Both the position numbers and the translations under genes were made by a program. Shown here one piece after another: positions 27,224 to 58,586 of a stretch of 64,000 nucleotides of DNA; positions within the stretch are counted from its first letter, which is position 1, and the number at the start of each line of letters is the position of its first letter. This stretch comes from a virus: IMG/VR virus record IMGVR_UViG_3300044712_000810, positions 186,001 to 250,000 of that record. One strand, given 5' to 3'. Below the pieces are notes generated by a model. That model made no database searches. It saw only the letters and a program-made list of their open reading frames with translations, and was not told the DNA's origin.

Positions 27224-27961
27224 TTACTTAAGATCAAGTCCTGCTGCAAATCCGTATATGTTTTGTCCACCATCATCAGAAACAAATACTAAACGATCTA
27301 TTCCAGCAGTAGTTAACGTTGGTTTTGTTCCACCACCCCATTTTACATTGGGTGACCAAGTAACAGTATATGCTCCACCATTAGCCATACTTAATACAAC
27401 AGATGCAGATTGTCCTTGTGAAGCACTTGGAAATCCACTAAAACTTATAGTACATGCACCGCCAATTGTTACCAATTGAACTACACCTTTTGTAATATCA
27501 ACTGTAAAACTTGATGTTTTTGTATTATTATTAAATACAGTTTCAGTATATTGTGTAAAACGTTGATTTAAAAATCCAGCAGAATCACTCATTGCAAATA
27601 TTAATGCTTTACCAGATGTTGGTTCAGAGAAGTTTAAAATAATACTATCATTATTAGAAAATGTTATAGTTGAAGGGAAGTTAATATCACCTTCTTCATC
27701 ATATACTACAACAATTAAATCTTGTGAGTTCAACCCGTGAACAATTGACCACGTGGATGTAACTGCTGTTTGAACATGTTTATAATGTTGATTTTCTCTA
27801 GTTAATGGACGCCATGCTTGGACTCCTTCTACTTCTGTCCAAATATATAAAACGCCGCCAACTAATGCGAATTGCCCAACAGTGGGTGAAGTCGGAAAAG
27901 TATCATTATCATTTTTGAGGATTAGTTTTCCTCTACATGTAAAATCTGCAAGAGCTTTCAT
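27224..27961 (-). CDS. Tail fibre protein with shared anchoring domain
   Basis: A 245-aa protein. Residues about 8-130 closely follow the N-terminus of the 591-aa fibre at 39952-41727: F-P-x-SPT-[VI]-GQ, [VL]-LYI, W-x-PLT, HxLNS, the run NLSF/LNFSE and GKA-[LV]-[IV]-FA-x-SDS. This is probably a common domain for attaching fibres to the baseplate. The C-terminal half is beta-rich with no recognised domain. Confidence 0.75.
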   Translation of the reverse strand: MKALADFTCRGKLILKNDNDTFPTSPTVGQFALVGGVLYIWTEVEGVQAWRPLTRENQHYKHVQTAVTSTWSIVHGLNSQDLIVVVYDEEGDINFPSTITFSNNDSIILNFSEPTSGKALIFAMSDSAGFLNQRFTQYTETVFNNNTKTSSFTVDITKGVVQLVTIGGACTISFSGFPSASQGQSASVVLSMANGGAYTVTWSPNVKWGGGTKPTLTTAGIDRLVFVSDDGGQNIYGFAAGLDLK

Positions 27962-28010: not shown

Positions 28011-28781
28011 TTATATTTCTAGTTTGAATCTAGATATATATTTTCTTGTTTGTGCAATAATATTAATACATTTATTATGATTATTAATAAAATAAATATC
28101 TTTTATATGTCCTTCTGGAATTGTATCAATATCATATTTTTTACCATATTGAATGTAATTAATAATATCAATTTGTTCAGGTATTGCACCAACAATTTTG
28201 TTCAGTGCAGATTCAGATAAAGTTGATACTGGATTGTTTGGTGTTAAGCTTAATGAATTCATAAATGTTTCATACCATTTAGAGAAGAATTTATCTTTTC
28301 TAAATGCACAAACAAATGAACTATCACATGCGGGTTGTTCTTTCCACCAATATGATGCGATTTTAGCAATTTTATTATATCCTGGTGACATTAATAATAA
28401 AGATGGTTCTTTAATTAATGTCATATCAAGATCTATATGAATTAATAAATCTTCTGTTAAATTATTATCAGCCCAAGCCATGACCAATGGTTTATTAAAG
28501 ATAGGATATTTAAAATTATCACTTGTAGATATTAATTCGGGAACTTCCATATATGTTACATTAAGTTCAGATAATTTTGCTTGTTGTTCATCGGTTAATG
28601 TATAACTAGATGGACATATAGCATAAATTGGAATATTTCTAAGTTCTCCAGCAAGTGATCTCCATGCAGTAAAACATACGATTGCATCTGATAACATTGG
28701 TGAATGTGGATTTTTTATACCATTTTCATCAACTATTGGTCTATTATAATTTTCAATAATTGTAACTAATGCTGGATTCAT
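28011..28781 (-). CDS. Glycosyltransferase-like protein
   Basis: A 256-aa protein. Residues about 30-60 (AIVCFTAWRSL, NIPIYAICPSS) form a nucleotide-sugar-type Rossmann start. HIDLDMTLI (Asp117-Leu-Asp119) looks like the DxD metal-binding motif of GT-A glycosyltransferases, preceded by LVMAWADNN. It could glycosylate a virion protein or receptor. It closes the radical SAM block, separated from the adhesins by a terminator. Family not certain. Confidence 0.6.
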   Translation of the reverse strand: MNPALVTIIENYNRPIVDENGIKNPHSPMLSDAIVCFTAWRSLAGELRNIPIYAICPSSYTLTDEQQAKLSELNVTYMEVPELISTSDNFKYPIFNKPLVMAWADNNLTEDLLIHIDLDMTLIKEPSLLLMSPGYNKIAKIASYWWKEQPACDSSFVCAFRKDKFFSKWYETFMNSLSLTPNNPVSTLSESALNKIVGAIPEQIDIINYIQYGKKYDIDTIPEGHIKDIYFINNHNKCINIIAQTRKYISRFKLEI

Positions 28782-28795
28782 TTTTTATCTCCAGA

Positions 28796-29443
28796 TTATA
28801 CATTTTCAAGATCAGATCTTGTAATTGAAGGAACTCCTTCAAGTTCTGCACCTGTGATTGCATTTAAATATACATTATAGGAATTTTCAATTGCGGCAAA
28901 GTCTGTACTTGTTTTAATAAAATCAAATACATTAAGTGCGTATTTATATACTTTAAATGTATAGTAGAAACGATCCATATTATTAATATGTTCTTCTAGT
29001 GCATTGATTGCCTCAATATTTCCACTTTGTAAAATTTCAGCTGTTTTGATTTCGCGATTTTCATCGGTGACAACATAACCTAAGTTGAATAACTTAGACC
29101 AAGACATAAGATATGCCCAAAAATAAGCCATACCCATTGGTCCAGTTGCCATTTGCATATGATCATAAATCTTTTCAACAACTGCACTTTTAATTGCCAT
29201 TAAATTATCACGAGATTCAAAAGTAAAATCTGTAGTGTTACTAACAATTTGACCAGCAACAACTTTTGATTTTAAAATTAATGCATCATTAGTAGGCAAT
29301 TGTGATTGAAGTAATTCAAATACTTCTTGTGAAATCTCAAATGCAAATTGTGTTGAATATTTAAATGATTGATCGACAGTCATAATTGACTGTATTAAAT
29401 ATCTATCACTGTGTTCTGAATTTTTAATTTTTGCAAGATACAT
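28796..29443 (-). CDS. Unknown protein beside Cys-rich gene
   Basis: A 215-aa protein of unknown function. Mostly helical, ending SITRSDLENV. SD AAGGAG before ATG. It lies directly downstream of the Cys-rich repeat protein, so it may be its partner or carrier. Confidence 0.75.
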   Translation of the reverse strand: MYLAKIKNSEHSDRYLIQSIMTVDQSFKYSTQFAFEISQEVFELLQSQLPTNDALILKSKVVAGQIVSNTTDFTFESRDNLMAIKSAVVEKIYDHMQMATGPMGMAYFWAYLMSWSKLFNLGYVVTDENREIKTAEILQSGNIEAINALEEHINNMDRFYYTFKVYKYALNVFDFIKTSTDFAAIENSYNVYLNAITGAELEGVPSITRSDLENV

Positions 29444-29464
29444 ATTATTTATCTCCTTTATTTA

Positions 29465-29968
29465 TTATGCGCACCAGAAACACCAACAGTTTCCATGGCA
29501 ATCACTATGACAGTTACAGTTTCCATGACAGTTACTATGACAATCACCAGACCAGTTACAATCACTATGACAGTTACTATGACAGTCTGAGTGACAGTTA
29601 CTATGACAGTTTGAGTGACAGTTTGAATAATATGCATCACAAACACATGCAACTTCATCGGTATTAACATCAGACTTAATTAAGTTTAATGTAGTACCGG
29701 CGATAATTTCACCAGTAGAAACATTTGAATAACCAGTATGTGTTGCTATTGTTTCTGCTGCACTTCTAAGATTGTTAGTATCTGTTGTTGGAATAATTGT
29801 TCCAACTGTTGGTGACGGTATAGAAGATGTTGCCAATCCTCTACGAGTTTGTTCACGAACAATTGCATTCGCGACTTCAATATATGCGCCAGTTTGAATC
29901 ATACTTCCAGTACTTGTACCATAAGACCACACGGTGGCATTTGATGCACAAGGAGGTATTCTACCCAT
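29465..29968 (-). CDS. Cys-rich repeat protein, candidate radical SAM substrate
   Basis: A 167-aa protein. Residues 1-105 are ordinary (AIVREQTRRGLATSSI, then TGEIIAGTTLNLIKSDVN). The last about 58 residues hold about 15 Cys, mainly as a four-residue repeat C-H-S-[ND] (NCHSNCHSNCHSDC), then CHGNCNCHSDCHGNC and CWCFWCA at the end. The gene follows two radical SAM genes without a gap (ATG overlaps the stop region of 29961). A conserved leader with a modified repetitive core is the architecture of radical-SAM RiPP precursors; metal binding is the alternative. The encoding DNA is a 12-base tandem repeat. Confidence 0.8.
   Translation of the reverse strand: MGRIPPCASNATVWSYGTSTGSMIQTGAYIEVANAIVREQTRRGLATSSIPSPTVGTIIPTTDTNNLRSAAETIATHTGYSNVSTGEIIAGTTLNLIKSDVNTDEVACVCDAYYSNCHSNCHSNCHSDCHSNCHSDCNWSGDCHSNCHGNCNCHSDCHGNCWCFWCA
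29488..29627. repeat. 12-base tandem repeat encoding C-H-S-[ND]
   Basis: Imperfect repeats of the type CAGTTACTATGA and CAGTTTGAGTGA on the plus strand, in frame with the Cys repeats of the minus-strand gene. Copy number could vary between isolates by slippage. Confidence 0.75.
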
Positions 29969-31202
29969 TATTATACTCCTTTTTAATATTTATAAATTCG
30001 TTCTTTTTATGTGATATAATTCTATTTAATATACATACACGTTGTTCAACGTTAAAATCATACCATTTATCATAATAATTTTCTTTATTGCTGGCATCAT
30101 ATTTATCTTTATTACATTTTACACAATATAAAGGTGAACAGTCGACACATTCATCATCTAGTTTTGTTGATGATTCATATTTATCATGTTCCATTTTACT
30201 CTTCATGAGATCATTATAGAAATCTAATTCTATATGTGATATCATATGATCTTTTTTATTTGGAGTATATAATGTTCCATGACACTTATATATAAATCCA
30301 TCAATATCTATTGTAAATAAATCTTTACCAGCAAAACAATTACCTATTTGTTTTTTCTCTAGTAACCATGAAAAGAATGGTTTGACATTACGATCCTTTT
30401 CCCAACGATCAAGTTCGAAGTGCATTATCTTATATATCTGTAATTCAAGATTATGTAATGCAAATCTAAATGATTTTTTGTCAAGTGCTGTAACAGATTG
30501 GCCACGTTCTAATGTTGGGCAATAGCCTTTCATTATATGTGGTGCATCAGGGAATGAATTCTGTAAATCATATATATCACAATATGATTCATATACGTAA
30601 TTTACACTTTTTAATGGTATTGTGCTTTTGATTGAATGTACAACGCCATATTTCATACAGTTTATAATATTTTCACGGACTTTGTCGCCGCAGATTCTAT
30701 TGTATTCGTTAATTGGATTACCATCGTAACTTATTTGAGTTATAAGTTTAGGTTCTCCAAATGCAGTCATGTGTTTTGAATAAAAAATCATATTCTCAAA
30801 AATATTTTCTAAATATATTCCATTAGTATATAGTGTGAATTCTACATTTTTAAAGTTTAAGAAGTATCGTAACATAAATTTGATTGCTGGATAATTTAAT
30901 GTAGGTTCGCCACCCCAAAATGTAATATTTAATACATCATAATTCTGTTTAAAATGATCAGTTTTAACTAATTGTTCGAGTTTATAACAAGTGAGATATA
31001 TTTGATCTTCACTAAAATAAAGTTTATCAAAATGTCCTTTCTCAAAACAATAAGAACATTTAGAATTACAGTCATTTGTAAGATTTATTTCAATTGTTAA
31101 ACGTCTAAGATTTGGTTTATTTGTAAATTTTGGTTTTTGATATAAATCTAACGCTGATGATATATATTTACGAAGTTCATCTTTATAATTAAATTCTAAC
31201 AT
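29961..31202 (-). CDS. Radical SAM/SPASM enzyme
   Basis: A 413-aa protein. Cys45/Cys49/Cys52 (DCNSKCSYC) bind the SAM cluster; FWGGEPTLNY is the GGEP motif. The C-terminal SPASM region has CFAGKDLFTIDIDGFIYKC, then DECVDCSPLYCVKC and a last Cys (RVCIL). This set of auxiliary-cluster ligands is typical of enzymes that modify ribosomal peptides (anSME/sactisynthase-like). It lies directly upstream of the Cys-rich repeat gene, making that its likely substrate (inference). Confidence 0.9.
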   Translation of the reverse strand: MLEFNYKDELRKYISSALDLYQKPKFTNKPNLRRLTIEINLTNDCNSKCSYCFEKGHFDKLYFSEDQIYLTCYKLEQLVKTDHFKQNYDVLNITFWGGEPTLNYPAIKFMLRYFLNFKNVEFTLYTNGIYLENIFENMIFYSKHMTAFGEPKLITQISYDGNPINEYNRICGDKVRENIINCMKYGVVHSIKSTIPLKSVNYVYESYCDIYDLQNSFPDAPHIMKGYCPTLERGQSVTALDKKSFRFALHNLELQIYKIMHFELDRWEKDRNVKPFFSWLLEKKQIGNCFAGKDLFTIDIDGFIYKCHGTLYTPNKKDHMISHIELDFYNDLMKSKMEHDKYESSTKLDDECVDCSPLYCVKCNKDKYDASNKENYYDKWYDFNVEQRVCILNRIISHKKNEFINIKKEYNNG

Positions 31203-32143
31203 TTCTTAAAGCTCCCAATCTCACTACCTTGATTATTGCATAAGTTACGGTAATTTTTAAAGAATACAGATTGATATGTATTATATTTAGGTCTTGCTCG
31301 AACACCTTCTTGTGGGACTAAATATATATCATTTGTCATCTTTGTAAGTTTAATACATTGATGTTCACAAATAGAACATACTTCCTGACACATTTTGATT
31401 TTGTATTTCTTGTATATTTTATTCATGTAACATGCTTCAAGAATATCTTTCAATTGATATGCATCAGCATCAGGATGATGATTATCTATTTCATTCCAGT
31501 TATGTGTAATAGAAAATCTATGAACATTCGGATAATATTCACACATATAAACCATATCATGAACAATATGATCTATATTTTGTTTATTTACAGTATATGC
31601 AATACCATAACGAATACCAGAATGTTTTAATATTTCTAATGCTTCTTCGATTTCTGATTTAGCTGATTGTTTATTTCCACGCCAAATACGTCTATCAGAA
31701 TGTGGACCATCATAACTAACTTGAACTAGAAATGTACTATTGTGTTTTGATGTAATTCTTTTATTTAATTCTAATAACTCATTGATATATTTCTTTACTA
31801 ATATACCATTAGTTTCTATCATAATATTCAAGTATCCATCTATTTTTGCGAATACTTGTTCCATAGTATATAATATAGTATCCATTCGCAGTAATGGTTC
31901 GCCACCAAAGAATAATAAACCAGTAGGTCCTTTAGTTCCTTCGCGTTTGATTATATTATCAATAAATGCATCAACTTCTTCTTTTGATGCATCGCGTTGG
32001 TAATCACCAAGTTCTTGTCTTTTTTCTTCTTCAAAACAATATTCACATGCTAAGTTACAACGAGTTGTAACATATATAATATTCATTTGGTGGCCGGTAA
32101 TCTTACTAGCATCTTCTTCAAATATTTGAGACGCTTTAACCAT
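31196..32143 (-). CDS. Radical SAM enzyme, short
   Basis: A 315-aa protein. Cys29/Cys33/Cys36 (RCNLACEYC), GLLFFGGEPLLR, and a compact C-terminal Cys set (CQEVCSICEHQC). It is too short for a full SPASM domain. It overlaps the next radical SAM gene by 7 bases, suggesting the two act together. SD GGAG. Confidence 0.9.
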   Translation of the reverse strand: MVKASQIFEEDASKITGHQMNIIYVTTRCNLACEYCFEEEKRQELGDYQRDASKEEVDAFIDNIIKREGTKGPTGLLFFGGEPLLRMDTILYTMEQVFAKIDGYLNIMIETNGILVKKYINELLELNKRITSKHNSTFLVQVSYDGPHSDRRIWRGNKQSAKSEIEEALEILKHSGIRYGIAYTVNKQNIDHIVHDMVYMCEYYPNVHRFSITHNWNEIDNHHPDADAYQLKDILEACYMNKIYKKYKIKMCQEVCSICEHQCIKLTKMTNDIYLVPQEGVRARPKYNTYQSVFFKNYRNLCNNQGSEIGSFKKC

Positions 32144-32152
32144 GAATTACTC

Positions 32153-32839
32153 CTACAAATATTTTAACAACTTGTTCTTATTTCCAAGTGTAAAAGTTGA
32201 TGTTTTAACTGCTAAATACATTAATGATACTAGGCGCGGATGTGTTAGTTTTATTTTTGATAGATTTGGTTGAATGATTGTATCAAAATATTTAATAACA
32301 TCATCTTCTACTGCTGTTTTATCTTTACACAGTGCAATAAAGTATGAACTAATTAAATATGATTTACGACTATCTTCATTTATTGTTATTAAATATTTAA
32401 CAATAGCATCAAATCGTCTATTATTAAGTAATATTTTATATTTAATACAATACCTATCAAGATAATACATTATACCATCAAACAATGCATTATCTGGAGC
32501 ATCACCAGACTTAATTATCTCTTCAACATATGATGTTGAAATATCAAAGTTATTAAGATTAACTAGACAAAACAAAATATCATGTAACCAATCACTTTGT
32601 GTGTATTTATCTTTTATTAATGTTTCTTTATTTACATTAAGAAAAGTGAGCGCATCATCAAATTTATTTTGATTTATAAGATCAAAATAATAATTAAACT
32701 TATCATTTCCACGTTTAGAGCTTAGATCTTCATGAATAATTTTCTTTTGCCAATCTTTTAAATATTTAATTGTAAACTTAATAAGTTTATTATATTTACC
32801 TGTATAAAATTCTGATTCATCCATAACTCTATTAATCAT
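32153..32839 (-). CDS. Unknown helical protein in radical SAM operon
   Basis: A 228-aa protein of unknown function. Almost entirely helical with repeated pairs of amphipathic helices (FDDALTFLNV, NNFDISTSYVEE, RRFDAIVKYL), perhaps a TPR-like scaffold. It could hold substrates or enzymes together; no motif proves this. Confidence 0.75.
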   Translation of the reverse strand: MINRVMDESEFYTGKYNKLIKFTIKYLKDWQKKIIHEDLSSKRGNDKFNYYFDLINQNKFDDALTFLNVNKETLIKDKYTQSDWLHDILFCLVNLNNFDISTSYVEEIIKSGDAPDNALFDGIMYYLDRYCIKYKILLNNRRFDAIVKYLITINEDSRKSYLISSYFIALCKDKTAVEDDVIKYFDTIIQPNLSKIKLTHPRLVSLMYLAVKTSTFTLGNKNKLLKYL

Positions 32840-32852
32840 TTTATTATCTCCA

Positions 32853-33437
32853 TTACTTAGTTTGGGACAACTGTTCCTTCACATAAGCGATAATAGCGTT
32901 TACTTCATTTTCGCATTCCGCATCTTGTTCTTTTGTGAGTCGAACCATTGGTCCTTTAATTCTTGCTTCTTTATTAATCCATGTATTCGAAGTGACACCT
33001 TCGTGACCACTTACTTGTAAATATGCTGCAACTTGTGGTGCAGGTTTGGTTTCTGGAATATATTTTAAACTTCCATCAGGATTTCTATCAGCGAATTTTT
33101 TGACCGGCTCTGGACATTGTGGACATCTTTCAACTGGATCATCACCACAATTACATGAACGTTTTTCAGGAACTACCGTTGGTGGTGTTTTTGATGGACA
33201 TGCACTACAACCAACAACTTCATCTGGTCCGTTTTTGGCATTTTGTTCTGCACAATCACACGAACCAAATGCTTTAGTAAATTCATAATTATAATCAAAT
33301 TCTGCACCAACTGTTTTAGCGCAGAAAAACATAATAGTTTCTGACATCATTGGATTTTTATCTTTGAAATACATTGCACCTTTCATTAAACTAGATAGTG
33401 CATCTAACATTTCGTCTGGGATTTGTCTTTCTTCCAT
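32853..33437 (-). CDS. Cys-rich protein, candidate modification substrate
   Basis: A 194-aa protein. A central 50-residue stretch holds CDC, CSAC, CNC, CPQC with Pro-rich spacers (CPSKTPPTVVPEKRSCNC). The flanks are non-Cys and helical. It overlaps the upstream radical SAM gene by 34 bases. SD TTGGAGGA. It could be a metal-binding carrier or another substrate of the enzymes around it. Confidence 0.75.
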   Translation of the reverse strand: MEERQIPDEMLDALSSLMKGAMYFKDKNPMMSETIMFFCAKTVGAEFDYNYEFTKAFGSCDCAEQNAKNGPDEVVGCSACPSKTPPTVVPEKRSCNCGDDPVERCPQCPEPVKKFADRNPDGSLKYIPETKPAPQVAAYLQVSGHEGVTSNTWINKEARIKGPMVRLTKEQDAECENEVNAIIAYVKEQLSQTK

Positions 33438-34543
33438 GATTTCTGTCCTCCAAATTTAGTGATTTGATCTGTAAAATATTTCTGGAATGGTTCAAAATCT
33501 TTAAGTAGATCAAAAAGTCTTAAAGATTCACGAATAGTAATTTTAGTTACTTCACAAAAACCATCTAATGGTTCTTTAATCCATTCACCATCACACTGTT
33601 TTAATTCCTGATTAAGACATCCTGTCATACAAACAAATTTAACTTCACAATCTTTGCATTTAGGAACAAAATCAGGGACTAATATATCAGGTCTAGAAAA
33701 TAAATCCATATTTTCAGGATACCATTCATTTGTTCTATAATTTAATATAGGATATTTATGTTCATGTGCAAATCTTCCACATGGATATGCATTTCCATCT
33801 GGAAAAAATGATATCATCCATGAACATGCTTCACATGCTCTTATTGATTTATTCCTAGATCCTAAAGCCAGCATAAATTCAAGTTTCTCTCGAAACATCG
33901 TTGGCATATTAGGTATTCCAGATTTCCAATATTCTACTATTTTATCAACTAATTGAGGACATGTTTTATTAAAAGTTTCAACACCTTCGGGTGTCCAACC
34001 TTCTTTAATAAAAGCAAAATCCATAAATGGCCATTGCAATCCTTCAATAAAAAAACGATAGTTGTCAACTAATGTTGACACATTATCATTGGATACCATA
34101 CAACGTGAACGTCCAAATTGTTTAAAGAATTGTATACGTTTCATATATTCAGTAAATGAATCTCCACCAGTTTGTAATGGTCTGTTGGTTTTATTCCAAA
34201 GTCCATCAAAACTTAATGTGAATCCAACATCGTGTGATTTAAGGTAGTCAAACTTCTCTTGATCCATTAATAGACCGTTGGTTGGGAATATAATACGAAC
34301 AATTCTTTCATCTTTGCCATATGTTTCAATGAAATATTTAATCAAATCATATCGAATCAATGGTTCACCACCAAAGAAAGCAATGACGGCAGTTTTATGA
34401 CCATAAACTCGTAAATATTCATCAAGATTAGACACGATTGTATCTAAATCTTCTTTAGTCATGTCATCTTTATCATGCTCAATATAACAATATTTGCAAT
34501 TCAAATTGCATTTTTGTGTTAGAATTACTTGTAATGTTAACAC
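33404..34543 (-). CDS. Radical SAM/SPASM enzyme
   Basis: A 379-aa protein. Cys12/Cys16/Cys19 (KCNLNCKYCY), VIAFFGGEPLIR, and a complete SPASM set: CEACSWMISFFPDGNAYPC, then CKDCEVKFVCMTGC and CDGEW/CEVT. The layout matches peptide-modifying maturases. It directly follows the 86-aa Cys-tailed gene at 34556. Confidence 0.92.
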   Translation of the reverse strand: MLTLQVILTQKCNLNCKYCYIEHDKDDMTKEDLDTIVSNLDEYLRVYGHKTAVIAFFGGEPLIRYDLIKYFIETYGKDERIVRIIFPTNGLLMDQEKFDYLKSHDVGFTLSFDGLWNKTNRPLQTGGDSFTEYMKRIQFFKQFGRSRCMVSNDNVSTLVDNYRFFIEGLQWPFMDFAFIKEGWTPEGVETFNKTCPQLVDKIVEYWKSGIPNMPTMFREKLEFMLALGSRNKSIRACEACSWMISFFPDGNAYPCGRFAHEHKYPILNYRTNEWYPENMDLFSRPDILVPDFVPKCKDCEVKFVCMTGCLNQELKQCDGEWIKEPLDGFCEVTKITIRESLRLFDLLKDFEPFQKYFTDQITKFGGQKSWKKDKSQTKC

Positions 34544-34555
34544 ATATACTCCTAT

Positions 34556-34816
34556 TTATTCACCATGACATGCAGTGTGACAATCTACATAAGGACCCAT
34601 ACATTCACATGTTTCATATTGTTCTTGAATTATTACATCTGATTTTTTATTATGGGCATCATATAATACTACAACTTTGATATATTCCATATGAGGACCA
34701 ATAAGACATTCAAATTTTGTATTTGAAAATCCATCTTTGATTTTCTGAATATAAGCTAACATTTTATCATGCGGCATACTTTTTTTAGGAATTAAAAATT
34801 CAGTAATAAGTTCCAT
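34556..34816 (-). CDS. Small protein with Cys-rich tail, RiPP-precursor-like
   Basis: An 86-aa protein. Residues 1-65 form an ordinary helix/strand domain; the last 18 residues (CECMGPYVDCHTACHGE) carry four Cys. The CHTAC element matches the C-H-[ST]-x-C pattern of the repeat protein at 29465. It lies between two radical SAM/SPASM genes, with a TAATG start overlap to the upstream one, the classical location of a precursor peptide. No experimental analogue is recognised. Confidence 0.8.
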   Translation of the reverse strand: MELITEFLIPKKSMPHDKMLAYIQKIKDGFSNTKFECLIGPHMEYIKVVVLYDAHNKKSDVIIQEQYETCECMGPYVDCHTACHGE

Positions 34817-36042
34817 TACAAACCTCTAAATTTTAAATATTCATCACGAAACTGATGTCGATAACAATCATTACAATTCTTACACTCATCAGGAAGTCTT
34901 TCTTTACCAAACATTGCACGACGTAAGTGTTGATATTCTAAACTATTCCATGCACTAAATATATCAGTACATGTATTTATATTTAATTCTTTATCAATTT
35001 CACTTAAATCATTAAAATATTGCAATGTACTACAACATGGTCTAACATTTCCTTTCGGATCAATATTAAACCGTGTCCACGGCGCATAACACCATGGCTC
35101 TTTTATTTCTTTATCTTTTAATTCGGCATAATATTCTTTTATTAAATCATTTATATGCCTATTAGGTAATGTTTTATTATATTTTTGTTTTGGTATTTTG
35201 GCCAAAAAATCTATATAAGGATTAGTTTTTGGAATTTCAATCTTATTTACTTCAATGTTTTTTGGTATTTCATAAACATAAGTATAAACTGAATTTCGAC
35301 GTTCATTTCGAATGAAATCAAGTTCAGTACTACTAAAATTATTAAATGTCATTGGAATATCGCGAACTTCATTATAGAAATTATTTAATACGTATAAATC
35401 TGTATCATCTATTTCATATTTCTTAAGTTCTTTCCAAAATCTACATTTTTGAAGTAACATTGTACTTGCTTTATATTCTTTACATATTTTATAGAATTCG
35501 TCTAAATACATTATACTATATTTAGTTATTAACATACTTAAAATTAAATTTACATTTGGTAGTTCTTTTTTAAGTAATTTTAGATTATATAAAACATTAT
35601 CTAAATTACCACCTCTTGTTTTCTCATATAAATCTTTTGAAGGTGCATCAATACTAACAATCATTGATTTAACATTTTCAAAATGTTTCAATTCGACCGT
35701 ATGAAACAATGTGCCATTTGTAGTTATATGGACATTATTGTTAGCATATGCTACGGTTGCCTGTAATTGTGGGTCAAGAAATGGTTCACCTTCAGCAGTT
35801 ATAAGAATGTGTTCACAGTTTTGTAAGAATGGTAATATTTTCAATTCAAAATTCATAGGTAATGCCATTCTTCGAAAATGACTATTGTCAGTATTTGAAT
35901 ACTTTGAATAATATGGACAATGAACACATCTAAGATTACATTTATTACTAACAAATAACATTAAACTTTGTGGATAACTATATATTATTTCTTTTTGTAA
36001 TGCAATCTCAAATAGATTTAATACTTTTAGTTTATCATTCAT
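34816..36042 (-). CDS. Radical SAM/SPASM enzyme, sister of the 5087 gene
   Basis: A 408-aa protein. Cys35/Cys39/Cys42 (KCNLRCVHC) and C-terminal CYAPWTRFNIDPKGNVRPCC with ECKNCNDC. It is clearly paralogous to the enzyme heading the collar operon at 5087-6337. TAATG start overlap with the upstream gene. Confidence 0.9.
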   Translation of the reverse strand: MNDKLKVLNLFEIALQKEIIYSYPQSLMLFVSNKCNLRCVHCPYYSKYSNTDNSHFRRMALPMNFELKILPFLQNCEHILITAEGEPFLDPQLQATVAYANNNVHITTNGTLFHTVELKHFENVKSMIVSIDAPSKDLYEKTRGGNLDNVLYNLKLLKKELPNVNLILSMLITKYSIMYLDEFYKICKEYKASTMLLQKCRFWKELKKYEIDDTDLYVLNNFYNEVRDIPMTFNNFSSTELDFIRNERRNSVYTYVYEIPKNIEVNKIEIPKTNPYIDFLAKIPKQKYNKTLPNRHINDLIKEYYAELKDKEIKEPWCYAPWTRFNIDPKGNVRPCCSTLQYFNDLSEIDKELNINTCTDIFSAWNSLEYQHLRRAMFGKERLPDECKNCNDCYRHQFRDEYLKFRGL

Positions 36043-37700
36043 TATTCAAACCTTGTAGGTTTAATATTTAATTGTTTTTGAGCGTTGGTAATATACTCAT
36101 TATCTTTTCGATAATATGTTTTGATAATATCCATAACATGTTGTTTATTTTTACAACATTTATATAATGCGAACAATAAATGTTGTGGTATACCGCGATT
36201 GTATGGTATTAATAAATCAAATGCTGATTTATAAAGTCCTTTTTTATATCTTTCAATTTGATCATAATCAAATCTTTTTGATTCACGATATAAATCATAA
36301 TGAAATGTAACATTCTTTTCATTATTGTCTGTCAATACTTTATCATCTCCATCAAAGTTTTTATGTTTTTTGATAAAGTGTACTGGATCTATAATTAAAT
36401 CATACTTTTCTGGATTTGTGTAAAATTCGCTATTATATGTTAGATAAAAACTATTGATTGCCACTGTATTTACTATTTCTATATTTTTTAAGATAAAGTG
36501 AATTGTTTCACTAGTCGAATGTTCATCATCGTATGGTAAACCAAATATAAAGTTCAATAAAGTCCATATACCAGATTTATGGCACCAATAAGTACCCTCA
36601 AGTATTTGATCTTTAGTAACACCTTTATTAATATATTTTAACATACGGTTATTAACACTTTCTGCACCAAATGATAAATGTCTACATCCGGCTTCATAAC
36701 ACATTTTAAAGAAATCTTCATCAACAAACTTATACTGACATGAATTTGACCAAGTAACTTGTTTCATATTCTTACGAATAAACCAATTACACATTTCATC
36801 AGCAATCTTTCTTGATGGATTAATACATGTATCTTTAAAGAATATATTATTTACACCTTGATCAACTAATCGTTCAATATTATCAAATATATCTTGTGAT
36901 TTACCACGATGATAAGTCGCAGTTGATGAACTACAAAATGCACACTTATTAGTACATCCGTAAAATGTATTAAAAGATGCTTGAAAAAACCAATCAGATG
37001 GTATATTAAGACCTTCTTTTGGTATATTGTAATAATCGAGTATATAATTATAACTATATTTTAAATCTTGTGTATTTTTTGGTAAAATGCTAGACATGCG
37101 ATGTTCTTTATGTAAGCGTCCAGCATTTCCAACTTTATTATCGACTAATAATTGACGTAAAGCTTCTTCATTTGGAATAGTACCAATATGAAGTATATCA
37201 ATAAATGATTTATCTTCTAACTTTTTAATATGTGTTTGTAACATTGATGCGTTATAACCACCAACAACAATTTTTGAATCTGGATATACATACCTTAACC
37301 ATTTTAACAACATGATATTAAGATAACTGGTTGGTGATATATCTATTGTTGGAGCATCTTGATATGATACAATGGATGCTAATATATATTTATATTTTTT
37401 ATGTAGATTTAAATTATTATCTACAATGTTATGTATTTTAGCTGGCCATAATGGATGTTTGAATAATTCTATGGCATTATCAAAATCATGTGGATATTTA
37501 AAATTTTCACAAAAGTTTTCAAATGTAGTATATTTCTTTAATAAATATGCATCAAAATCATAATAATCTATATTATGATCTGATTTTAAATACTCTGCAA
37601 ACATTGCAGGAGCATAATGACTAAACTTTAATGGCTTATATAATGGATTTTCATATGTAAATCTTGTCGGCATTGATAAAATTAAAACGTCCGCTTTCAT
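36042..37700 (-). CDS. Radical SAM protein with N-terminal B12-binding-like domain
   Basis: A 552-aa protein. About 200 N-terminal residues (FSHYAPAMFAEYL, KIVVGGYNASML) resemble the cobalamin-binding Rossmann part of class B radical SAM methyltransferases, but no DxHxxG motif is seen. The radical SAM core has CTNKCAFC and FFKDTCINPS, GAESVNNRMLKYINKG. The start at 37700 follows SD AGGAAG. Paralogue of the 38403 gene. Peptide C-methylation is one possibility. Confidence 0.85.
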   Translation of the reverse strand: MKADVLILSMPTRFTYENPLYKPLKFSHYAPAMFAEYLKSDHNIDYYDFDAYLLKKYTTFENFCENFKYPHDFDNAIELFKHPLWPAKIHNIVDNNLNLHKKYKYILASIVSYQDAPTIDISPTSYLNIMLLKWLRYVYPDSKIVVGGYNASMLQTHIKKLEDKSFIDILHIGTIPNEEALRQLLVDNKVGNAGRLHKEHRMSSILPKNTQDLKYSYNYILDYYNIPKEGLNIPSDWFFQASFNTFYGCTNKCAFCSSSTATYHRGKSQDIFDNIERLVDQGVNNIFFKDTCINPSRKIADEMCNWFIRKNMKQVTWSNSCQYKFVDEDFFKMCYEAGCRHLSFGAESVNNRMLKYINKGVTKDQILEGTYWCHKSGIWTLLNFIFGLPYDDEHSTSETIHFILKNIEIVNTVAINSFYLTYNSEFYTNPEKYDLIIDPVHFIKKHKNFDGDDKVLTDNNEKNVTFHYDLYRESKRFDYDQIERYKKGLYKSAFDLLIPYNRGIPQHLLFALYKCCKNKQHVMDIIKTYYRKDNEYITNAQKQLNIKPTRFE

Positions 37701-38406
37701 AAGACTTCCTATACTCAAGCATAATATGTTCACTGATATCTTTTACATACTTACAAAAAGTAGAATATGATAAACCTCTATTTTCAATTTGAATACAATA
37801 ATTCAAATTTCCAAAATGTTTTCGATCATGTGATACTGATATTATATAATTCATTTGTGTATGTCCACATTTATTCATAGCTTCTGACATTAATTGATCA
37901 AATACATACAAATCATATGAACTTGAATAAAAAATTACATATAATACACATCGATTATGACCTTCACATGATGATATTGTCTTCATTCCACAAATAAGAT
38001 TGATTGCATCACATAAAGGTTTAACATTTTTATCTATTTTATTTTTAGTATCGATATTTATCATATAATTTGGTCCAAACAAATCACCACTTGATGTTTG
38101 TTGTGGTAAATATTCACGATATTTAACTTGTTCATCGTCAGTTAATCTACGAATTTTAACATTATCAATACTTTTTAGAAATGTTTCCAAAAATGCTTTA
38201 AGTTTATCACCAAATAGTTCCGAAAATGGTGAAACAAAACAAACATTTTCAAAAATATGAACAAATTCTAAATCTTTATCATAATCTTCAGGAAATTCAC
38301 CAATATCAACTATAAATTTATTAAGAAGATCATTTAATTGATCTTTCCATTCATAATTTTCAGCAAATATTACAAACATCCGTCTAAATTCACAAATAGT
38401 TATCAT
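37651..38406 (-). CDS. Unknown protein between two radical SAM genes
   Basis: A 251-aa protein. The motif GMKTISSCEGHNRCVLYVIFY (from about residue 139) resembles the short SCEGH-type block of some phage and TYW3-like proteins. The rest is unrecognised. It is in ATGA overlap with the upstream radical SAM gene and overlaps the downstream one by 50 bases, so all three are translated together. Confidence 0.7.
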   Translation of the reverse strand: MITICEFRRMFVIFAENYEWKDQLNDLLNKFIVDIGEFPEDYDKDLEFVHIFENVCFVSPFSELFGDKLKAFLETFLKSIDNVKIRRLTDDEQVKYREYLPQQTSSGDLFGPNYMINIDTKNKIDKNVKPLCDAINLICGMKTISSCEGHNRCVLYVIFYSSSYDLYVFDQLMSEAMNKCGHTQMNYIISVSHDRKHFGNLNYCIQIENRGLSYSTFCKYVKDISEHIMLEYRKSYESGRFNFINADKIYI

Positions 38407-39902
38407 AAAACCTTCCTGTAATATTTATCAATCATATCTCTAACTATAGTTTTATCATTATACATATCATAAAGTGCAAATATTAAATGTTGTGGTACAC
38501 GCATATGATATGGATTTAGATAATTAAGAGATATATTGTGTAATTTTGTTTTATATTCTTCAATTTCATGAAAGTCGAGTCTATCAATTTCGCGATATGC
38601 GGGATATTGAAACTCTGTAGTTGGGTCTTCTTCAGGTTTGACTTGTAAAGTCTTGTCCTTATTCAATGATGGAATACGAACAATCGACACATTTTTATTA
38701 AATTCAAGACCATACTTGTGTGGGTTTTCATAAAAATCACTACCGGCGGTCATATAAAACCGACTAAGTGTAATTTCATCAATATGTTTTATATTTTTCT
38801 TTATTAGAGCAATAGTAGTGCCAACTGTTGTTTCATCATCATATGGAAACCCAATAATAAAATTAAGTAAATTCCATATACCAACTTCACTACTATCCTT
38901 AGTACGTTCAAGTATTTCATCTCTGTTTGTATTCTTATTAATATATTTCAACATATCATTATGAAGACTTTCAGCGCCAAAACATAGTATTCGGCAACCG
39001 GCATCATATAACATATGAAAAAAATCTTTACTAGTATTATGAAAACAACATGAATTTGACCATTTGATATTCAAATTCTTTTTAATAAACCAATTACATA
39101 ATCTTTCGGCATATTTTATAGATGGATTAACAGAACTATCTTTAAAGAATAAAGTATTTACACCTTGATCATATAATTTTAATATACAATCATACAATTC
39201 ATTCTCATCTGGTATACACAATTTACTTTGTTGCCGACAGTAGGCACATTTATTGGGACAACCACGAAATGATATGATTGATGATTGAAAAATGTATTTA
39301 TTTGGATTTGGCCGAAGATCTGGAAATCCATATTGATCTAAAATTTCTTTATATGAATATCTTAAATCATTTTGATTTTCAGGTAATATACTTGTGTAAA
39401 AATCATCTACATGATTATGGTTATTTGTACCATTTAATAAATTGTCAAGATCACACTTATCGTTGATATTTTTATTATATATAATATCAACGATATTTTT
39501 ATTAATATTTTTTTGTATCTTCAATGCTTCTTTTCCACCAACTATTATTTTTGCTGATGGGAATCGTTTTCTTAAATACTCTAAAATTAAAATATTCAAG
39601 TCAATTGTCTTATTTCTTCCCATCGAATGATCTTGACGATGAGGCAGACAAGAACATAATATATAATTGTATGATTCTTTTAAATTTAAAGAATCAAACA
39701 TTTCATTCAAATTTATATTATTACAATTTTGATATCGTTTTGATAATAATACATCAAGATCGTAATAATCAACAACATCATCTTTTAAGTATTTAGCAAA
39801 AAGAGATAATGCGTAACTACTAAATCTCATTGGAACTGAATTAATTTCATTTTTATCTAATGTAAATAAACAAGGCATAGTTAATAATAAAAACGTACGC
39901 AC
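38403..39902 (-). CDS. Radical SAM protein, B12-type layout, GTG start
   Basis: A 499-aa protein. The GTG at 39902 follows SD AGGAGGA; the frame is open to 39941 but would start inside the hairpin. CPNKCAYC (about 220 residues in), FFKDSSVNPS and FGAESLHNDMLKYINKN match the 36042 paralogue block by block. It has the N-terminal Rossmann-like region (KIIVGGKEAL). First of the enzyme block. Confidence 0.85.
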   Translation of the reverse strand: MRTFLLLTMPCLFTLDKNEINSVPMRFSSYALSLFAKYLKDDVVDYYDLDVLLSKRYQNCNNINLNEMFDSLNLKESYNYILCSCLPHRQDHSMGRNKTIDLNILILEYLRKRFPSAKIIVGGKEALKIQKNINKNIVDIIYNKNINDKCDLDNLLNGTNNHNHVDDFYTSILPENQNDLRYSYKEILDQYGFPDLRPNPNKYIFQSSIISFRGCPNKCAYCRQQSKLCIPDENELYDCILKLYDQGVNTLFFKDSSVNPSIKYAERLCNWFIKKNLNIKWSNSCCFHNTSKDFFHMLYDAGCRILCFGAESLHNDMLKYINKNTNRDEILERTKDSSEVGIWNLLNFIIGFPYDDETTVGTTIALIKKNIKHIDEITLSRFYMTAGSDFYENPHKYGLEFNKNVSIVRIPSLNKDKTLQVKPEEDPTTEFQYPAYREIDRLDFHEIEEYKTKLHNISLNYLNPYHMRVPQHLIFALYDMYNDKTIVRDMIDKYYRKVL

Positions 39903-39951: not shown

Positions 39952-41727
39952 TTAACTAGCTGAATATAACCATGTTGTTCCAGAATAAATAAACTCTACT
40001 CTGGCCCATGCAACGTCAACTGTAAGATCTTCTGCGACACCGCGAATGGTTGAACCATTGCGTATAACTATAATATTGTTTGTAGCAAACATGCCTTTTT
40101 CATCTATTAAACATACACGATCACCTTGTGATGGTGATGCTGGAAGCGTAAAGTTAAAACCAGCAGTTGTTGTATCAGCAATAACATAATCTGATGCGAC
40201 TGCTGTATATGCTGCGCTTTTCTTAAGAATTGTCCAACCACCGCCGCCACCAGATGCTGAAACAACTCCAGATCCATCAATTGAAAGACCTGAACCAATT
40301 TTAATAACACCGGCAACCGATGCTGATGCAGTTGGAAGTGTTGCTGAAGTTAATACATCATTTCCACCAACTTGAAGTTTAGTTCCTGTCCAAGTAATGT
40401 TTGATGATGTTGTGAACTTTCTTGTTGAGTTATCAAAGTATGGAACACCATTATTTACTGGTGAATCTTCACGTGTGGCAACAACTTGTTGATCATTTAC
40501 CATACCAACTGTAAATGCATCTTTTGTTTCATCGAAAATAAATTTATAATCGGTGAGTGTTCCACGATCAACTTGAATACCAGCTTCACCATTTGTTACG
40601 CCGGCTCCAGTTTCACCAGAGTTTACTTCAATTAAGTTATCTTTTGCTGTAATTGAAGTAGTATTAACAGTTGTTGTTGTTCCACTGACTGTTAAGTTAC
40701 CTGTAATTGTTACATCACCAAGACCTGTGATTGTTTTTCCAGTAAAGTCAACAGGTGAATTAAATTTAACGGTTGATGCATTAAAGTTAGTTTCGCCTAT
40801 TGAAGTGAATTGTACTTGTGAACTTGTACCAGAAGCAACAAAACTAATAATACCACCGGATGATTGGTTTTGGAAAAGAATGTTTTTATTTGCATTATTT
40901 GATGGGACTGTTGTTTCGACTCCACCCTTAGCATTTGTTGTAACAGTAGAATCGGAAAGAAGATTTACATCACCTGTTCCAGTAGTTTTAACTGCTAAAT
41001 CTTGATCTATATCTGTTTTAATTGTAATGGTATTTGAAACATCTTCGATAACTTTCTTATCGTTAACATAAAGTGAACTTGCGCCAACACGAACTTCTGC
41101 TGCATAAATGTTAGCAAAACGATTTGTTGCAGACCCAAGGTTACGTGTATTATCACCATCAGGTAAAATATTACCAGTTACACGGTATGAACCATCAAGT
41201 TGATCTACTGCATCAAGAACACCAGTTGTTGCACCAATAGATAGATTATTACCAACTTTAACACCACCAAGTGCTGTTGCTGTTGCGATTGGTAATGTAT
41301 ATGAACCACCGCCAGTGCCAGTTCCCATACCAGCATAAGAATCACTAGCAGCAAAAACTACTGCTTTACCTCTTATTGCTTCTGTGAAACTTAAATTAAG
41401 ACTATTGGCATCAATAAAACTTGGTTGTGTATTTTGTAATTCATCATTTTCATCATATGCAAAAATACCAACAAGTTTACTATTTAAATTGTGTGTAATT
41501 TGCCATAGTGTTGATAGTGTTTCTTGTGTATGAATATAATATAGCGCTTTATTTGTGAGTGGATACCAAGTTGCAGTTCCTCCAATATTTGCATAAATAT
41601 AGAGGACTTGTTCCATGAAACATATTTGGCCGATTGTTGGTGAATCAGGAAATGAAGTAACATTGTCGAACATTACTGTTGCACCAGCTTTCATCTTTAA
41701 ATTCGCGCGTGTATTTAATTGTGCCAT
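39952..41727 (-). CDS. Long tail fibre/virion structural protein
   Basis: A 591-aa protein. The N-terminal about 130 residues are the anchoring domain also present at 27224-27961. The middle holds the fibre segment GNLTVSGTTTTVNTTSITAK, NLIEVNSGETGAGVTNGEAG and GIQVDRG, a conserved block in fibre/appendage proteins of large myoviruses. The C-terminus (KKSAAYTAVASDYVIADTTT and on) is a small beta domain seen at many fibre ends. Good SD (AGGAGA). Confidence 0.85.
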   Translation of the reverse strand: MAQLNTRANLKMKAGATVMFDNVTSFPDSPTIGQICFMEQVLYIYANIGGTATWYPLTNKALYYIHTQETLSTLWQITHNLNSKLVGIFAYDENDELQNTQPSFIDANSLNLSFTEAIRGKAVVFAASDSYAGMGTGTGGGSYTLPIATATALGGVKVGNNLSIGATTGVLDAVDQLDGSYRVTGNILPDGDNTRNLGSATNRFANIYAAEVRVGASSLYVNDKKVIEDVSNTITIKTDIDQDLAVKTTGTGDVNLLSDSTVTTNAKGGVETTVPSNNANKNILFQNQSSGGIISFVASGTSSQVQFTSIGETNFNASTVKFNSPVDFTGKTITGLGDVTITGNLTVSGTTTTVNTTSITAKDNLIEVNSGETGAGVTNGEAGIQVDRGTLTDYKFIFDETKDAFTVGMVNDQQVVATREDSPVNNGVPYFDNSTRKFTTSSNITWTGTKLQVGGNDVLTSATLPTASASVAGVIKIGSGLSIDGSGVVSASGGGGGWTILKKSAAYTAVASDYVIADTTTAGFNFTLPASPSQGDRVCLIDEKGMFATNNIIVIRNGSTIRGVAEDLTVDVAWARVEFIYSGTTWLYSAS

Positions 41728-45969: not shown

Positions 45970-46647
45970 ATGTCAATAAATAATAAAATAGCAAGTTTCT
46001 TATTTCAAGATGATTGGAGTGACACAATAGAATATAAAAAACATAAAGAAAAAGTCAAAAAAATTGAAACTAGTGCATATATGAAAAAACCACAAGCGGT
46101 AGATGAAATAATAAATGATCTTAAAGAAAAAATTAAAATAGGTGAAGATATTTCATGTGAATGGTTACAAATATTATTACAAAAACATCCAATATTGACT
46201 AAACAATTAATTATTAATGAATTCAAAAAGTTCTTTGATGGACTTAAGACAATACCAACCGCTCCGGAAGTTACTGCCAAAGTCGATTTAATATCATCTA
46301 TGGCATCGCAACTTTCAAAGGAGCGTGAAGATATAAATAAAAAAACAAAACAATTAGAAATACAAATGAAAAAATATGAAGTACTTAAACAAAATATTGC
46401 TGGACTTGAAAAACAAAAAGCAACACAAATGAAAGAATTGAATTCAATTAAAAGTGAAGTAAATAGACAAAAAAGACTATTACAAAATTCAGCAAATACT
46501 TTAATTCCTGAAGTAACATTAAATTTAAATATCGATCAATTAATACCTAAACTTGAAAAACTTGATATAAATGTTGTAAATGCACTTATGATTCACATGG
46601 ATGATATTAAAGTGATCATACAAAAAGAAATGTTACGGAGAGTATAA
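45970..46647 (+). CDS. Coiled-coil CTM protein
   Basis: A 225-aa protein. Residues about 105-180 form a long coiled coil (QLSKEREDINKKTKQLEIQM). Then a segment SANTLIPEVTLNLNIDQLIP, found in all five genes that follow, and the CTM MDDIKVIIQKEMLRRV. It suggests an oligomer built by the coiled coil and displaying the CTM. SD AAGGAGG. Confidence 0.85.
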   Translation: MSINNKIASFLFQDDWSDTIEYKKHKEKVKKIETSAYMKKPQAVDEIINDLKEKIKIGEDISCEWLQILLQKHPILTKQLIINEFKKFFDGLKTIPTAPEVTAKVDLISSMASQLSKEREDINKKTKQLEIQMKKYEVLKQNIAGLEKQKATQMKELNSIKSEVNRQKRLLQNSANTLIPEVTLNLNIDQLIPKLEKLDINVVNALMIHMDDIKVIIQKEMLRRV

Positions 46648-47069
46648 TGACACGACTTAAAGTGGAAAATGAAATTAATGATATATTATCATCACTAGAC
46701 GGAATAGATGATCCAAAGATATACACTGCAAGTCATTTGGCCGAAGAGCTAGGACTTGTAACAAAAGAAGAGGCATTACTACAAAAATCAAGGTCACTTG
46801 ATCAAAAGGAACGTGAACTTCTTCGTAAGGAATCATTTTTAGCTGATGAACAAGCAAAAGTTAGAAAAAAAATTAATGAATTACAAAATGAAATATCACT
46901 TATACATTCAAGTTTTAATAATATGATTCCAGGGATGGCACTTAATATGGATGTTGAAGATCTTCGGAGGAAGTTATCAAAACTTCCATTCACAGTATTA
47001 GCAGGACTAAGCGAATGGCTAGACCACGCAAAGACAGAAGTACAGAAAGAGATGACGAACCGGATATAA
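46647..47069 (+). CDS. Coiled-coil CTM protein
   Basis: A 140-aa protein of unknown function: coiled coil (SRSLDQKERELLRKESFLAD), MIPGMALNMDVEDL block, CTM LDHAKTEVQKEMTNRI. TAATG junction; SD CGGAGA from the upstream R-R codons. Confidence 0.85.
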   Translation: MTRLKVENEINDILSSLDGIDDPKIYTASHLAEELGLVTKEEALLQKSRSLDQKERELLRKESFLADEQAKVRKKINELQNEISLIHSSFNNMIPGMALNMDVEDLRRKLSKLPFTVLAGLSEWLDHAKTEVQKEMTNRI

Positions 47070-47563
47070 GAGAAATTTATGAAACTGCAACAGATGTTTA
47101 TTTTCCTAATGGATTTGATGCAAGAGATCATAATTTTATGGTATTTATTGAACAACAATATAAAGATTATTGGAATAAATATTATAAAAAACGAATGACT
47201 CCAAGTGCTAAAGAAATTAAAAAACGCACAGAAGAGTTAAATGAACGAGAAACCATATTAACGATTAAAGAACAAGAATTTAAAGATCGTATAAGAAATA
47301 AAGAAGATGACATTCGAGACATTAGTAGAGATTTAAAAGGTAAAGAAATTGCAATTCATCATAAGATGGAATTAGCAGATAAAAGATTAAAACAAATTGC
47401 TGAATCGAATGAAAAAATAATCCCAGAACTTGTATTTGAAATGGATCCTACAGTAATTCAAGAAAAATTAAGTAGGATCAATATGACATTTCTTGATTGT
47501 ATGTTAAATCATATGGACGATCTTAAAGCATTAATACAAAAAGAAATGTTACGGAGGATATAA
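47015..47563 (+). CDS. Coiled-coil CTM protein
   Basis: A 182-aa protein of unknown function: basic start (MARPRKDRS), coiled coil (about 65-135), IIPELVFEMDPTVIQEKL block, CTM MDDLKALIQKEMLRRI. It overlaps the upstream gene by 55 bases; no alternative in-frame start is apparent. Confidence 0.8.
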   Translation: MARPRKDRSTERDDEPDIREIYETATDVYFPNGFDARDHNFMVFIEQQYKDYWNKYYKKRMTPSAKEIKKRTEELNERETILTIKEQEFKDRIRNKEDDIRDISRDLKGKEIAIHHKMELADKRLKQIAESNEKIIPELVFEMDPTVIQEKLSRINMTFLDCMLNHMDDLKALIQKEMLRRI

Positions 47564-48106
47564 ATGCCAAAAAAAACCAGTCTTTTCGACGATGATGATT
47601 CGCCACTTGTTGCATATTCTAAATTAAGTAAAGGTAAACGAACATATAGACATGAATTCGTCGACTTATCAAAATGTAATCGTAAACAATTTAGAGAAAT
47701 AATCAAAGACATTAATGAATTTTATGAAGATAAATATTCAAAATTAATGACACCAACGGTAAGTCGTCTTCGAAGAGAACAACAGGCATTACGTGATCAA
47801 GTTAAAGCAATAACTGCCAGACATTTTGCATTAGATGAAAAAGAAAAAAGACTTAAAGAAAGAGAAAACAGAGAAATTGAAAATAAAAAAATATTTCTTC
47901 ATAAACGTGAAACTGAAATAGAACATAGAGAAAAAACACTTAAAGATATAAATATAAGAGTATGTGAAAAAATAGTATTTGAATTGAATGAAAAATATAT
48001 AACCGACACAATTTCCGGCATTAATATAACATTTCTTTGTTGTATGCCTGATCATTTAGATCGAATCAAAGAATTAATTCAACGTGAACTACTCAACCGA
48101 GTCTAG
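47564..48106 (+). CDS. Coiled-coil CTM protein
   Basis: A 180-aa protein of unknown function: coiled coil (KEKRLKERENREIENKKIFL), then KIVFELNEKYITDTI, CTM LDRIKELIQRELLNRV. SD CGGAGG is encoded by the upstream LRRI tail. Confidence 0.85.
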   Translation: MPKKTSLFDDDDSPLVAYSKLSKGKRTYRHEFVDLSKCNRKQFREIIKDINEFYEDKYSKLMTPTVSRLRREQQALRDQVKAITARHFALDEKEKRLKERENREIENKKIFLHKRETEIEHREKTLKDINIRVCEKIVFELNEKYITDTISGINITFLCCMPDHLDRIKELIQRELLNRV

Positions 48107-48115
48107 GAGGATCAA

Positions 48116-58480: not shown

Positions 58481-58490
58481 GAGAAACAAA

Positions 58491-58577
58491 ATGCTACTTA
58501 AACTCATACAAATAATTCCAACTTTTATATTTACAATAGTAGCAATCACTTTTGTAATCCTTTCATTTTCTAATTAA
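58491..58577 (+). CDS. 28-aa hydrophobic peptide
   Basis: MLLKLIQIIPTFIFTIVAIT and eight more residues, a single membrane span. SD AGGAG 7 bases upstream. It lies in the break between the two beta' genes. Too short to recognise. Confidence 0.65.
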   Translation: MLLKLIQIIPTFIFTIVAITFVILSFSN

Positions 58578-58586
58578 AGGAATGGC

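Follow-up and report, generated by a model that had tools for sequence, protein, structure and literature searches.

Gene content of the radical SAM block

A block of genes for radical S-adenosylmethionine (rSAM) enzymes, interspersed with genes for cysteine-rich proteins, lies between two tail-fiber genes of the 314,837-bp IMG/VR virus record IMGVR_UViG_3300044712_000810. The window referred to below is the 64,000-nt stretch formed by bases 186001–250000 of that record. Its genes are named by start coordinate, and labels such as L386, L399 and L495 denote loci on compared phage contigs. An earlier note on this DNA reported six rSAM genes with a CxxxCxxC motif in a tail-fiber block, together with Cys-rich genes among the enzymes and overlapping starts and stops, and all of this is borne out by the sequence. 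The six enzymes are encoded on the minus strand, score above the gathering cut-off of Pfam Radical_SAM (PF04055), and carry CxxxCxxC at positions 45, 29, 12, 35, 260 and 228, as listed. Start/stop overlaps within the block are −8, −7, −34, −1, −1 and −4 bp, and this tight packing fits a translationally coupled operon. The bounding fiber genes, 27224 and 39952, both match PHROGs and have an N-terminal region in common (36.6% over 131 aa).

Eight Pfam Radical_SAM genes were found by an own-genome search of the record: the six of the block, one at record position 272501, and one at window 5087–6337, a paralog of 34816 that had escaped the earlier note. Three of the block enzymes are referred to as alpha (33404), beta (31196) and gamma (29961). 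The genes concerned are the following.

27224–27961, minus strand: tail-fiber protein, N-terminal ~130 aa as in 39952 (PHROG tail fiber protein, 3e-11)
28011–28781, minus strand: glycosyltransferase-like protein (blastp relatives CP220 gp088, 9e-13, and locus L422, 5e-26; PHROG 23758, unknown function)
28796–29443, minus strand: conserved "post" gene after the fiber gene (matches in 23 loci, best 3e-12)
29465–29968, minus strand: Cys-array fiber protein and proposed substrate, with a three-helix N-domain and a C-terminal CHSN/CHSD array (17 Cys)
29961–31202, minus strand: gamma, rSAM/SPASM with seven auxiliary Cys, directly upstream of 29465 (orthologs at e-35 to e-63 beside Cys-array fibers)
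31196–32143, minus strand: beta, rSAM with four auxiliary Cys (same-order orthologs at e-30 to e-38; CP220 gp099, 9e-22)
32153–32839, minus strand: 228-aa protein, relatives not found in PHROG and class II locus comparisons
32853–33437, minus strand: Cys-containing protein after alpha, placed as are the small Cys proteins of L386, L388 and L389, without detectable homology to them
33404–34543, minus strand: alpha, rSAM/SPASM with seven auxiliary Cys (orthologs at e-58 to e-78; CP220 gp023, 1e-46)
34556–34816, minus strand: 86-aa protein ending DCHTACHGE, candidate substrate and second CHxxCH tail of the genome
34816–36042, minus strand: twitch/SPASM rSAM, paralog of 5087 (41% identity; Pfam rSAM and SPASM)
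36042–37700, minus strand: B12-class-like rSAM (the reading frame opens at 37733; ATG 37700 is the likelier start)
37651–38406, minus strand: TYW3-like protein (Pfam TYW3, 3.9e-6, slightly below cut-off)
38403–39902, minus strand: B12-class-like rSAM, 43% identical to 36042 (GTG 39902 has an AGGAGG site)
39952–41727, minus strand: tail-fiber protein bounding the block upstream (PHROG 972, tail fiber proximal subunit, 4e-9; PHROG 21918, 8.5e-19)
5087–6337, minus strand: rSAM, paralog of 34816, beside tail-collar fiber genes (own-genome search, PHROG)

The class II module and protein 29465

Profiles of 33404 and 29961 were used to find related loci in other phage contigs. A class II module is defined here as alpha, beta and gamma orthologs in that order, with a Cys-array fiber gene after gamma; the window has this order, a Cys-array fiber after gamma, and the N-domain of the family in 29465. 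The fuller arrangement of the window, in which a small Cys gene stands between alpha and beta, is repeated in L386, L388 and L389. In L387 the gene order is also the same, with few Cys in the gene after alpha, and in L388 the gamma frame is broken and additional short open reading frames (ORFs) are present. Across L386–L389, blastp E-values to the window enzymes are 4e-58 to 8e-78 for alpha and 1e-38 to 5e-30 for beta, and those for gamma, with L396 and L399 included, are 2e-61 to 1e-35. Relatives of 28796 adjoin or come after the Cys-array fibers in L389, L396 and L399. The Cys-rich proteins of this class terminate in arrays, for instance CTCNCNYACTCNCNY or CICNSDCSCNLVCACHNDCGCNY, and the arrays vary widely while the enzymes stay. 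Two further proteins beside gamma-like rSAMs, L467 (470 aa) and L468 (461 aa), end in a shorter CVCNCN(F/Y)CSCFGHEA and possibly represent a third type of tip.

Loss of the Cys-rich gene from relatives that keep the enzymes was the outcome that the earlier note would have counted against itself. Among the 21 best gamma loci, picked by E-value with duplicates excluded, 20 have a dense-Cys ORF within 10 kb, and the exception is an 8.6-kb contig. The background of such ORFs in bacterial control loci is 5 per 1.04 Mb. The note had also proposed a search of other phages for the same block, and what recurs there is the alpha–beta–gamma–array core; the B12 pair, the twitch rSAM and the TYW3-like gene are not conserved with it. 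Relatives of 34816, of the B12 pair (A2) and of the twitch pair (A1) were not found in IMG/VR scans.

CP220 and related Campylobacter phages, which are so closely related that they were counted as one lineage, likewise keep the Cys-array gene, with alpha, beta and gamma lying apart from one another. Their array protein, gp140, is 534 aa long with 35 Cys and contains an array of the heptapeptide CDCNYCT (L495, 2933–4537). At the DNA level this array corresponds to the 21-bp repeat that Timms et al. reported (CPT_0180, PMC2853527), the sole coding repeat of CP220. In phages CP21 and WX1 the gp140 homologs carry the annotation N-acetylneuraminate pyruvate lyase, apparently in error. Upstream of the alpha ortholog gp023, the small proteins gp020 and gp022 (L023) have Cys near their C-termini and are possible further substrates.

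Within the genome of the window, the CHxxCH motif is confined to 29465 and 34556 among 495 non-overlapping ORFs, with 0.01 occurrences expected; both proteins sit in the rSAM block, and it is the DCHTACHGE end of 34556 that has the motif in common with 29465. With its array removed, the N-domain of 29465 matches the class II fiber-family profile at 1.2e-10 (hmmsearch), the next of the ~495 own ORFs reaching 0.05. The corresponding hhalign score is 47, against 10.2 ± 2.1 (maximum 20.5) for 150 shuffles. By these profile comparisons, 29465 is a member of the phage fiber family of class II loci. Its predicted structure has a pLDDT (predicted local distance difference test score) of 81–94 over most of the N-domain and a disordered tail. 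A fold search with this model gave no match at E ≤ 0.001, the best being archaeal rod-shaped virus proteins at 4e-3. Neither the array-bearing parts nor the N-domains of the tested fiber proteins fall within a Pfam or NCBIfam family; some of these proteins match PHROGs 35144 and 26958, both without function. Finally, tblastn of 29465, 28796 and the L088 protein of class I (see below) in phage records gave no matches.

Peptidase_S74 and the position of the array

Peptidase_S74, the endosialidase chaperone, is an intramolecular chaperone: it trimerizes tail fibers or spikes, after which self-cleavage at its start releases it. Eight intact class II proteins with S74 were scanned, and in each of them position 1 of the Pfam S74 domain comes directly after the array. 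Because S74 starts right there and cleaves itself, the array would become the C-terminal end of the fiber in these relatives. The array is already C-terminal in 29465, which ends without an S74 domain, and in most class I proteins. The domain is also missing from L399, L427 and L463; it is thus not universal in the class II family and was not used as a defining feature. In L387 (14063–15038) and L388 (9143–9954), the S74 sequence breaks at one shared point, after SDxxLKxxIxY, and continues in the following ORF, possibly as a means of making the chaperone separately.

The class I module of jumbo phages

A second module was reached from a CHxxCHxxCHxxC DNA pattern in IMG/VR. Most matches were low-complexity or shadow ORFs, and the analysis kept to ORFs that had been read in context. 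Several credible proteins with CHSxC repeat ends adjoin rSAM genes, and a tblastn search with one of these neighbors matched cultured jumbo phages of Pseudomonas, Sinorhizobium, Agrobacterium and Burkholderia. In these phages the gene after the enzyme, termed rSAM group A, ends in CHTSCHTSCHSARGRR, CHTSCHASCHSSRSRR, CHSSCHASCHNSRSRR or CHSSCHTSCHGSRGRR. The group A profile has at least 377 relatives in IMG/VR, and the locus counts rest on the best 80 of these, 76 of which have enough downstream DNA. A CHxx-array ORF lies downstream of rSAM A in 75 of the 76 (79 of 84 once genome-contig loci are added). Nearly all of these genes end in CHxxCHxxCHxxR[GS]RR. Each of the 77 RR-ending proteins keeps C-16, H-15, C-12, H-11, C-8, R-4, [GS]-3, R-2 and R-1, and 76 keep H-7. 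Their N-domains are far more diverse than these tails. Class I loci with wide flanks mostly carry 4–6 rSAMs from six groups, one of them B12-class-like, and in L116 the class I tail is followed by Peptidase_S74. Long CHSS arrays in L213, L239 and L244 are interrupted by NVPV or NVV spacers, and array length differs between phages. In addition, class I modules occur on contigs binned to metagenome-assembled genomes of Rickettsiales, Bdellovibrionaceae and Bacteriovoracaceae (L304, L306, L307 and L311); these contigs may be phage DNA and a clue to hosts.

The class I N-domain is modeled with confidence (pLDDT 87) and the tail is flexible. The model has no PDB match, and its BFVD matches are mainly to its own family, Atu_ph07 gp170 among them. 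In the mass-spectrometric virion proteome of Agrobacterium phage Atu_ph07 (PMC6102473), three gene clusters account for most of the virion proteins; one of them is coding sequences 170–215, with gp215 the major capsid protein. By the accession numbering, gp170 is the CHxx-array protein and forms one boundary of this cluster, from which we infer that gp170 itself was detected in virions.

The window was compared with this module as well. The R[GS]RR ending is absent from 29465, its N-domain is unrelated, and the window enzymes obtain only generic scores with hidden Markov models of class I rSAMs; on sequence grounds the window module is not class I, and its rSAMs fall outside the class I groups. 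Whole-protein hhalign had offered 29465 as a relative of the class I precursor at 94%; the N-domain alone gave 0.1%, inside the shuffle range, and the kinship was rejected because the score stemmed from the tail. Neither 28796 nor 32153, tried as a class I companion protein, is homologous to that companion.

Family assignment of the enzymes

Three full SPASM Cys sets and two B12-type N-termini had been claimed in the earlier note, and the first claim stands in part, the second having indirect support. Alpha and gamma have the complete seven-Cys pattern; 34816 matches Pfam SPASM with fewer Cys, and beta has four auxiliary Cys. The paralogs 36042 and 38403 have B12 rSAM enzymes as their best NCBIfam and PDB matches, and no Pfam B12-binding domain was matched in either. 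For alpha and gamma, the nearest solved structure is 5wgg, which we take to be CteB, the thioether-forming SCIFF maturase; anaerobic sulfatase maturase comes next for gamma. Against NCBIfam maturase models, alpha, beta and gamma score far under every cut-off. The best model, the PapB-type ranthipeptide maturase (NF047865, cut-off 340 bits), gives 130 bits for 33404, 61 for 31196 and 52 for 29961, and the CXXX-repeat maturase (TIGR04115, cut-off 350 bits) gives 35 bits for 29961 and 62 for 33404.

A proposed maturation operon for a fiber tip

The reading favored here, at a probability of about 0.7, is that the genes of the block form an operon for maturing a phage fiber tip, in which rSAM enzymes covalently tailor the array of a virion fiber protein. 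Action of the enzymes on the arrays is proposed because two sequence-unrelated modules pair SPASM rSAMs with Cys arrays at fiber tips. The helical N-domain of 29465 presumably attaches the protein to the tail or trimerizes the fiber, leaving the flexible Cys array at the end. Gamma, beta and alpha would act on that array before or during assembly, converting free thiols into stable covalent bonds and yielding a compact, disulfide-independent tip that would meet the host surface. Thioether links to neighboring residues are judged the most likely product, from 5wgg as the nearest structure and PapB as the best NCBIfam model; for thioether bonding in particular this is a tentative preference, with methylation, epimerization, formylglycine or other chemistry as open alternatives. 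Additional marks may come from the B12 pair, the twitch enzyme and the TYW3-like protein, or these may work on a different fiber. Their membership in the same pathway is rather doubtful because they do not recur together with the core. In a wider form, the proposal that two unrelated multi-enzyme rSAM lineages in tailed phages covalently tailor the extreme C-terminal fiber tip, a RiPP-like peptide (one resembling ribosomally synthesized and post-translationally modified peptides) being worn on the virion as a receptor-contact or puncturing tip, seems reasonably likely. The host-contacting tips of these phages are probably hardened or armed by RiPP-like chemistry.

It is also conceivable that the Cys/His array forms a metal-, Fe-S- or disulfide-stabilized tip without radical chemistry and that the rSAMs act on other things. 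Phage spike tips with bound metal are known, repeats such as CHxxCHxxCH and CTCNCNY could plausibly ligate metal or form disulfide knots, and variable arrays beside constant enzymes suit this account. It leaves unexplained, however, why dense-Cys fibers accompany SPASM rSAMs at the frequencies found in the best gamma loci (20 of 21) and the rSAM-A loci (75 of 76), and why the pairing persists in CP220-type phages despite their dispersed genes; such a tip is therefore considered unlikely, if not negligibly so. A role of the rSAMs as metabolic or DNA-related auxiliary genes, or as glycan modifiers of host or virion, with the Cys gene a passenger, agrees with the glycosyltransferase-like 28011 and the TYW3-like gene within the block and was suggested for CP220 and DT01 (PMC2853527, PMC8541153). 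Since the order of rSAM and then Cys-array fiber is kept in two sequence-unrelated modules, and the SPASM enzymes are nearest to peptide maturases, we consider it quite improbable for the core; it may apply to the B12, twitch and TYW3-like genes.

The earlier note had itself offered two products, a free RiPP-like peptide or marks on a virion protein. A free peptide cut from 29465 or 34556, perhaps aimed at competing phages or bacteria, would match the usual RiPP arrangement of Cys-rich sequences beside SPASM enzymes. Yet the array sits on a fiber-family protein whose relatives have Peptidase_S74 after it, the gene lies between fiber genes, and family scans of the block genes recognized no protease or exporter, no dedicated search having been made; a free product thus appears very improbable, with 34556 less affected by these arguments than 29465 and still a conceivable source. 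The same fiber-family membership and S74 position, and the retention of the Cys-array gene by enzyme-keeping phages, favor the second product, marks on a virion protein.

Several points weigh against the fiber-tip proposal. In a strict test, the dense-Cys gene is the very next gene in just 20 of 45 wider gamma loci. Only alpha, beta and gamma are tied to the array, and three of the six block rSAMs are not. The reaction cannot be read from homology because no NCBIfam maturase model comes anywhere near its cut-off. Metal binding or disulfide formation might be all that the array does. The mass-spectrometry support concerns the class I module, not that of the window, and depends on a cluster boundary in the Atu_ph07 study.

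If the fiber-tip proposal is true, oxygen-sensitive radical chemistry would build a covalently stabilized fiber tip, a new form of virion maturation. The large rSAM sets annotated as metabolic since 2010 would gain a substrate, and the rSAM-A relatives in IMG/VR, at least 377 in number, would constitute a new reservoir of rSAM peptide chemistry. Phages in which the proposal can be tested directly are in culture for Campylobacter, Pseudomonas, Agrobacterium, Sinorhizobium and Burkholderia.

Other features of the window

The rSAM gene at 5087–6337 is directly beside three tail-collar-type fiber paralogs (2124, 3103 and 4078), and three further paralogous proteins (6883, 8338 and 9838) are nearby. 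Many tandem small ORFs (~70–225 aa), several of them detectable paralogs, occupy window 1–21732 and 45970–48768 and have a common C-terminal motif like DD(D/E)xxxxMQKYIxEx. At 56332–60847, an RNA polymerase beta-prime-like gene is in two pieces with an HNH-endonuclease-like ORF (57402–58148) between them, which, judged from translations only, suggests an intron or homing insertion.

Comparison with known systems

The earlier note took an rSAM set of this size to be undescribed in phages. This does not hold, since CP220 and CPt10 carry 11–12 rSAM proteins (PMC2853527) and Pseudomonas phage pPa_SNUABM_DT01 carries six (PMC8541153). Large phage sets are described in these two papers and in PMC3322345, and are listed too in PMC8066314 and PMC11898562; the roles given are metabolism, DNA or unknown. 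The CP220/CPt10 set resembles the window in that CP220 has alpha, beta and gamma and a Cys-array protein, and the six rSAMs of DT01 are those of a class I module. The difference is that both sets were published as metabolic or DNA-repair genes, with no link to a Cys-array fiber made in the text available.

SCIFF/ranthipeptide maturation (CteB, PapB) is similar in its use of SPASM rSAMs with a Cys-rich ribosomal substrate encoded next door, and both the closest solved structure to alpha and gamma (5wgg) and the best NCBIfam model (PapB) belong to it. The block differs in scoring far under the equivalog cut-offs and in having as substrate a fiber-family protein with a C-terminal array, not a small leader-core peptide. 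The CXXX-repeat peptide system (TIGR04115) resembles the tail of 29465, a C-x3-C repeat; however, 29961 reaches 35 of the 350 bits needed, and the remaining class II arrays follow CxCxCxY in place of CXXX. QhpD-type enzymes and anaerobic sulfatase maturase are rSAM/SPASM proteins that act on Cys of a protein rather than of a small peptide, and sulfatase maturase is among the nearest matches. Their substrates are different, whereas here a virion protein is proposed, with several rSAMs per locus. Peptidase_S74 fibers and spikes are comparable in that many relatives of the window protein have S74 after the Cys array, with the difference that 29465 itself is without S74; we know of no Peptidase_S74 example with a Cys array or rSAM.

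No description of rSAM-tailored fiber tips, or of an rSAM link to a Cys-array fiber, was found in the open-access literature. The maturation of a ribosomal substrate by rSAM enzymes is known, and its phage-fiber setting appears new; the new element is the substrate link of phage rSAM sets to the Cys-array fiber.

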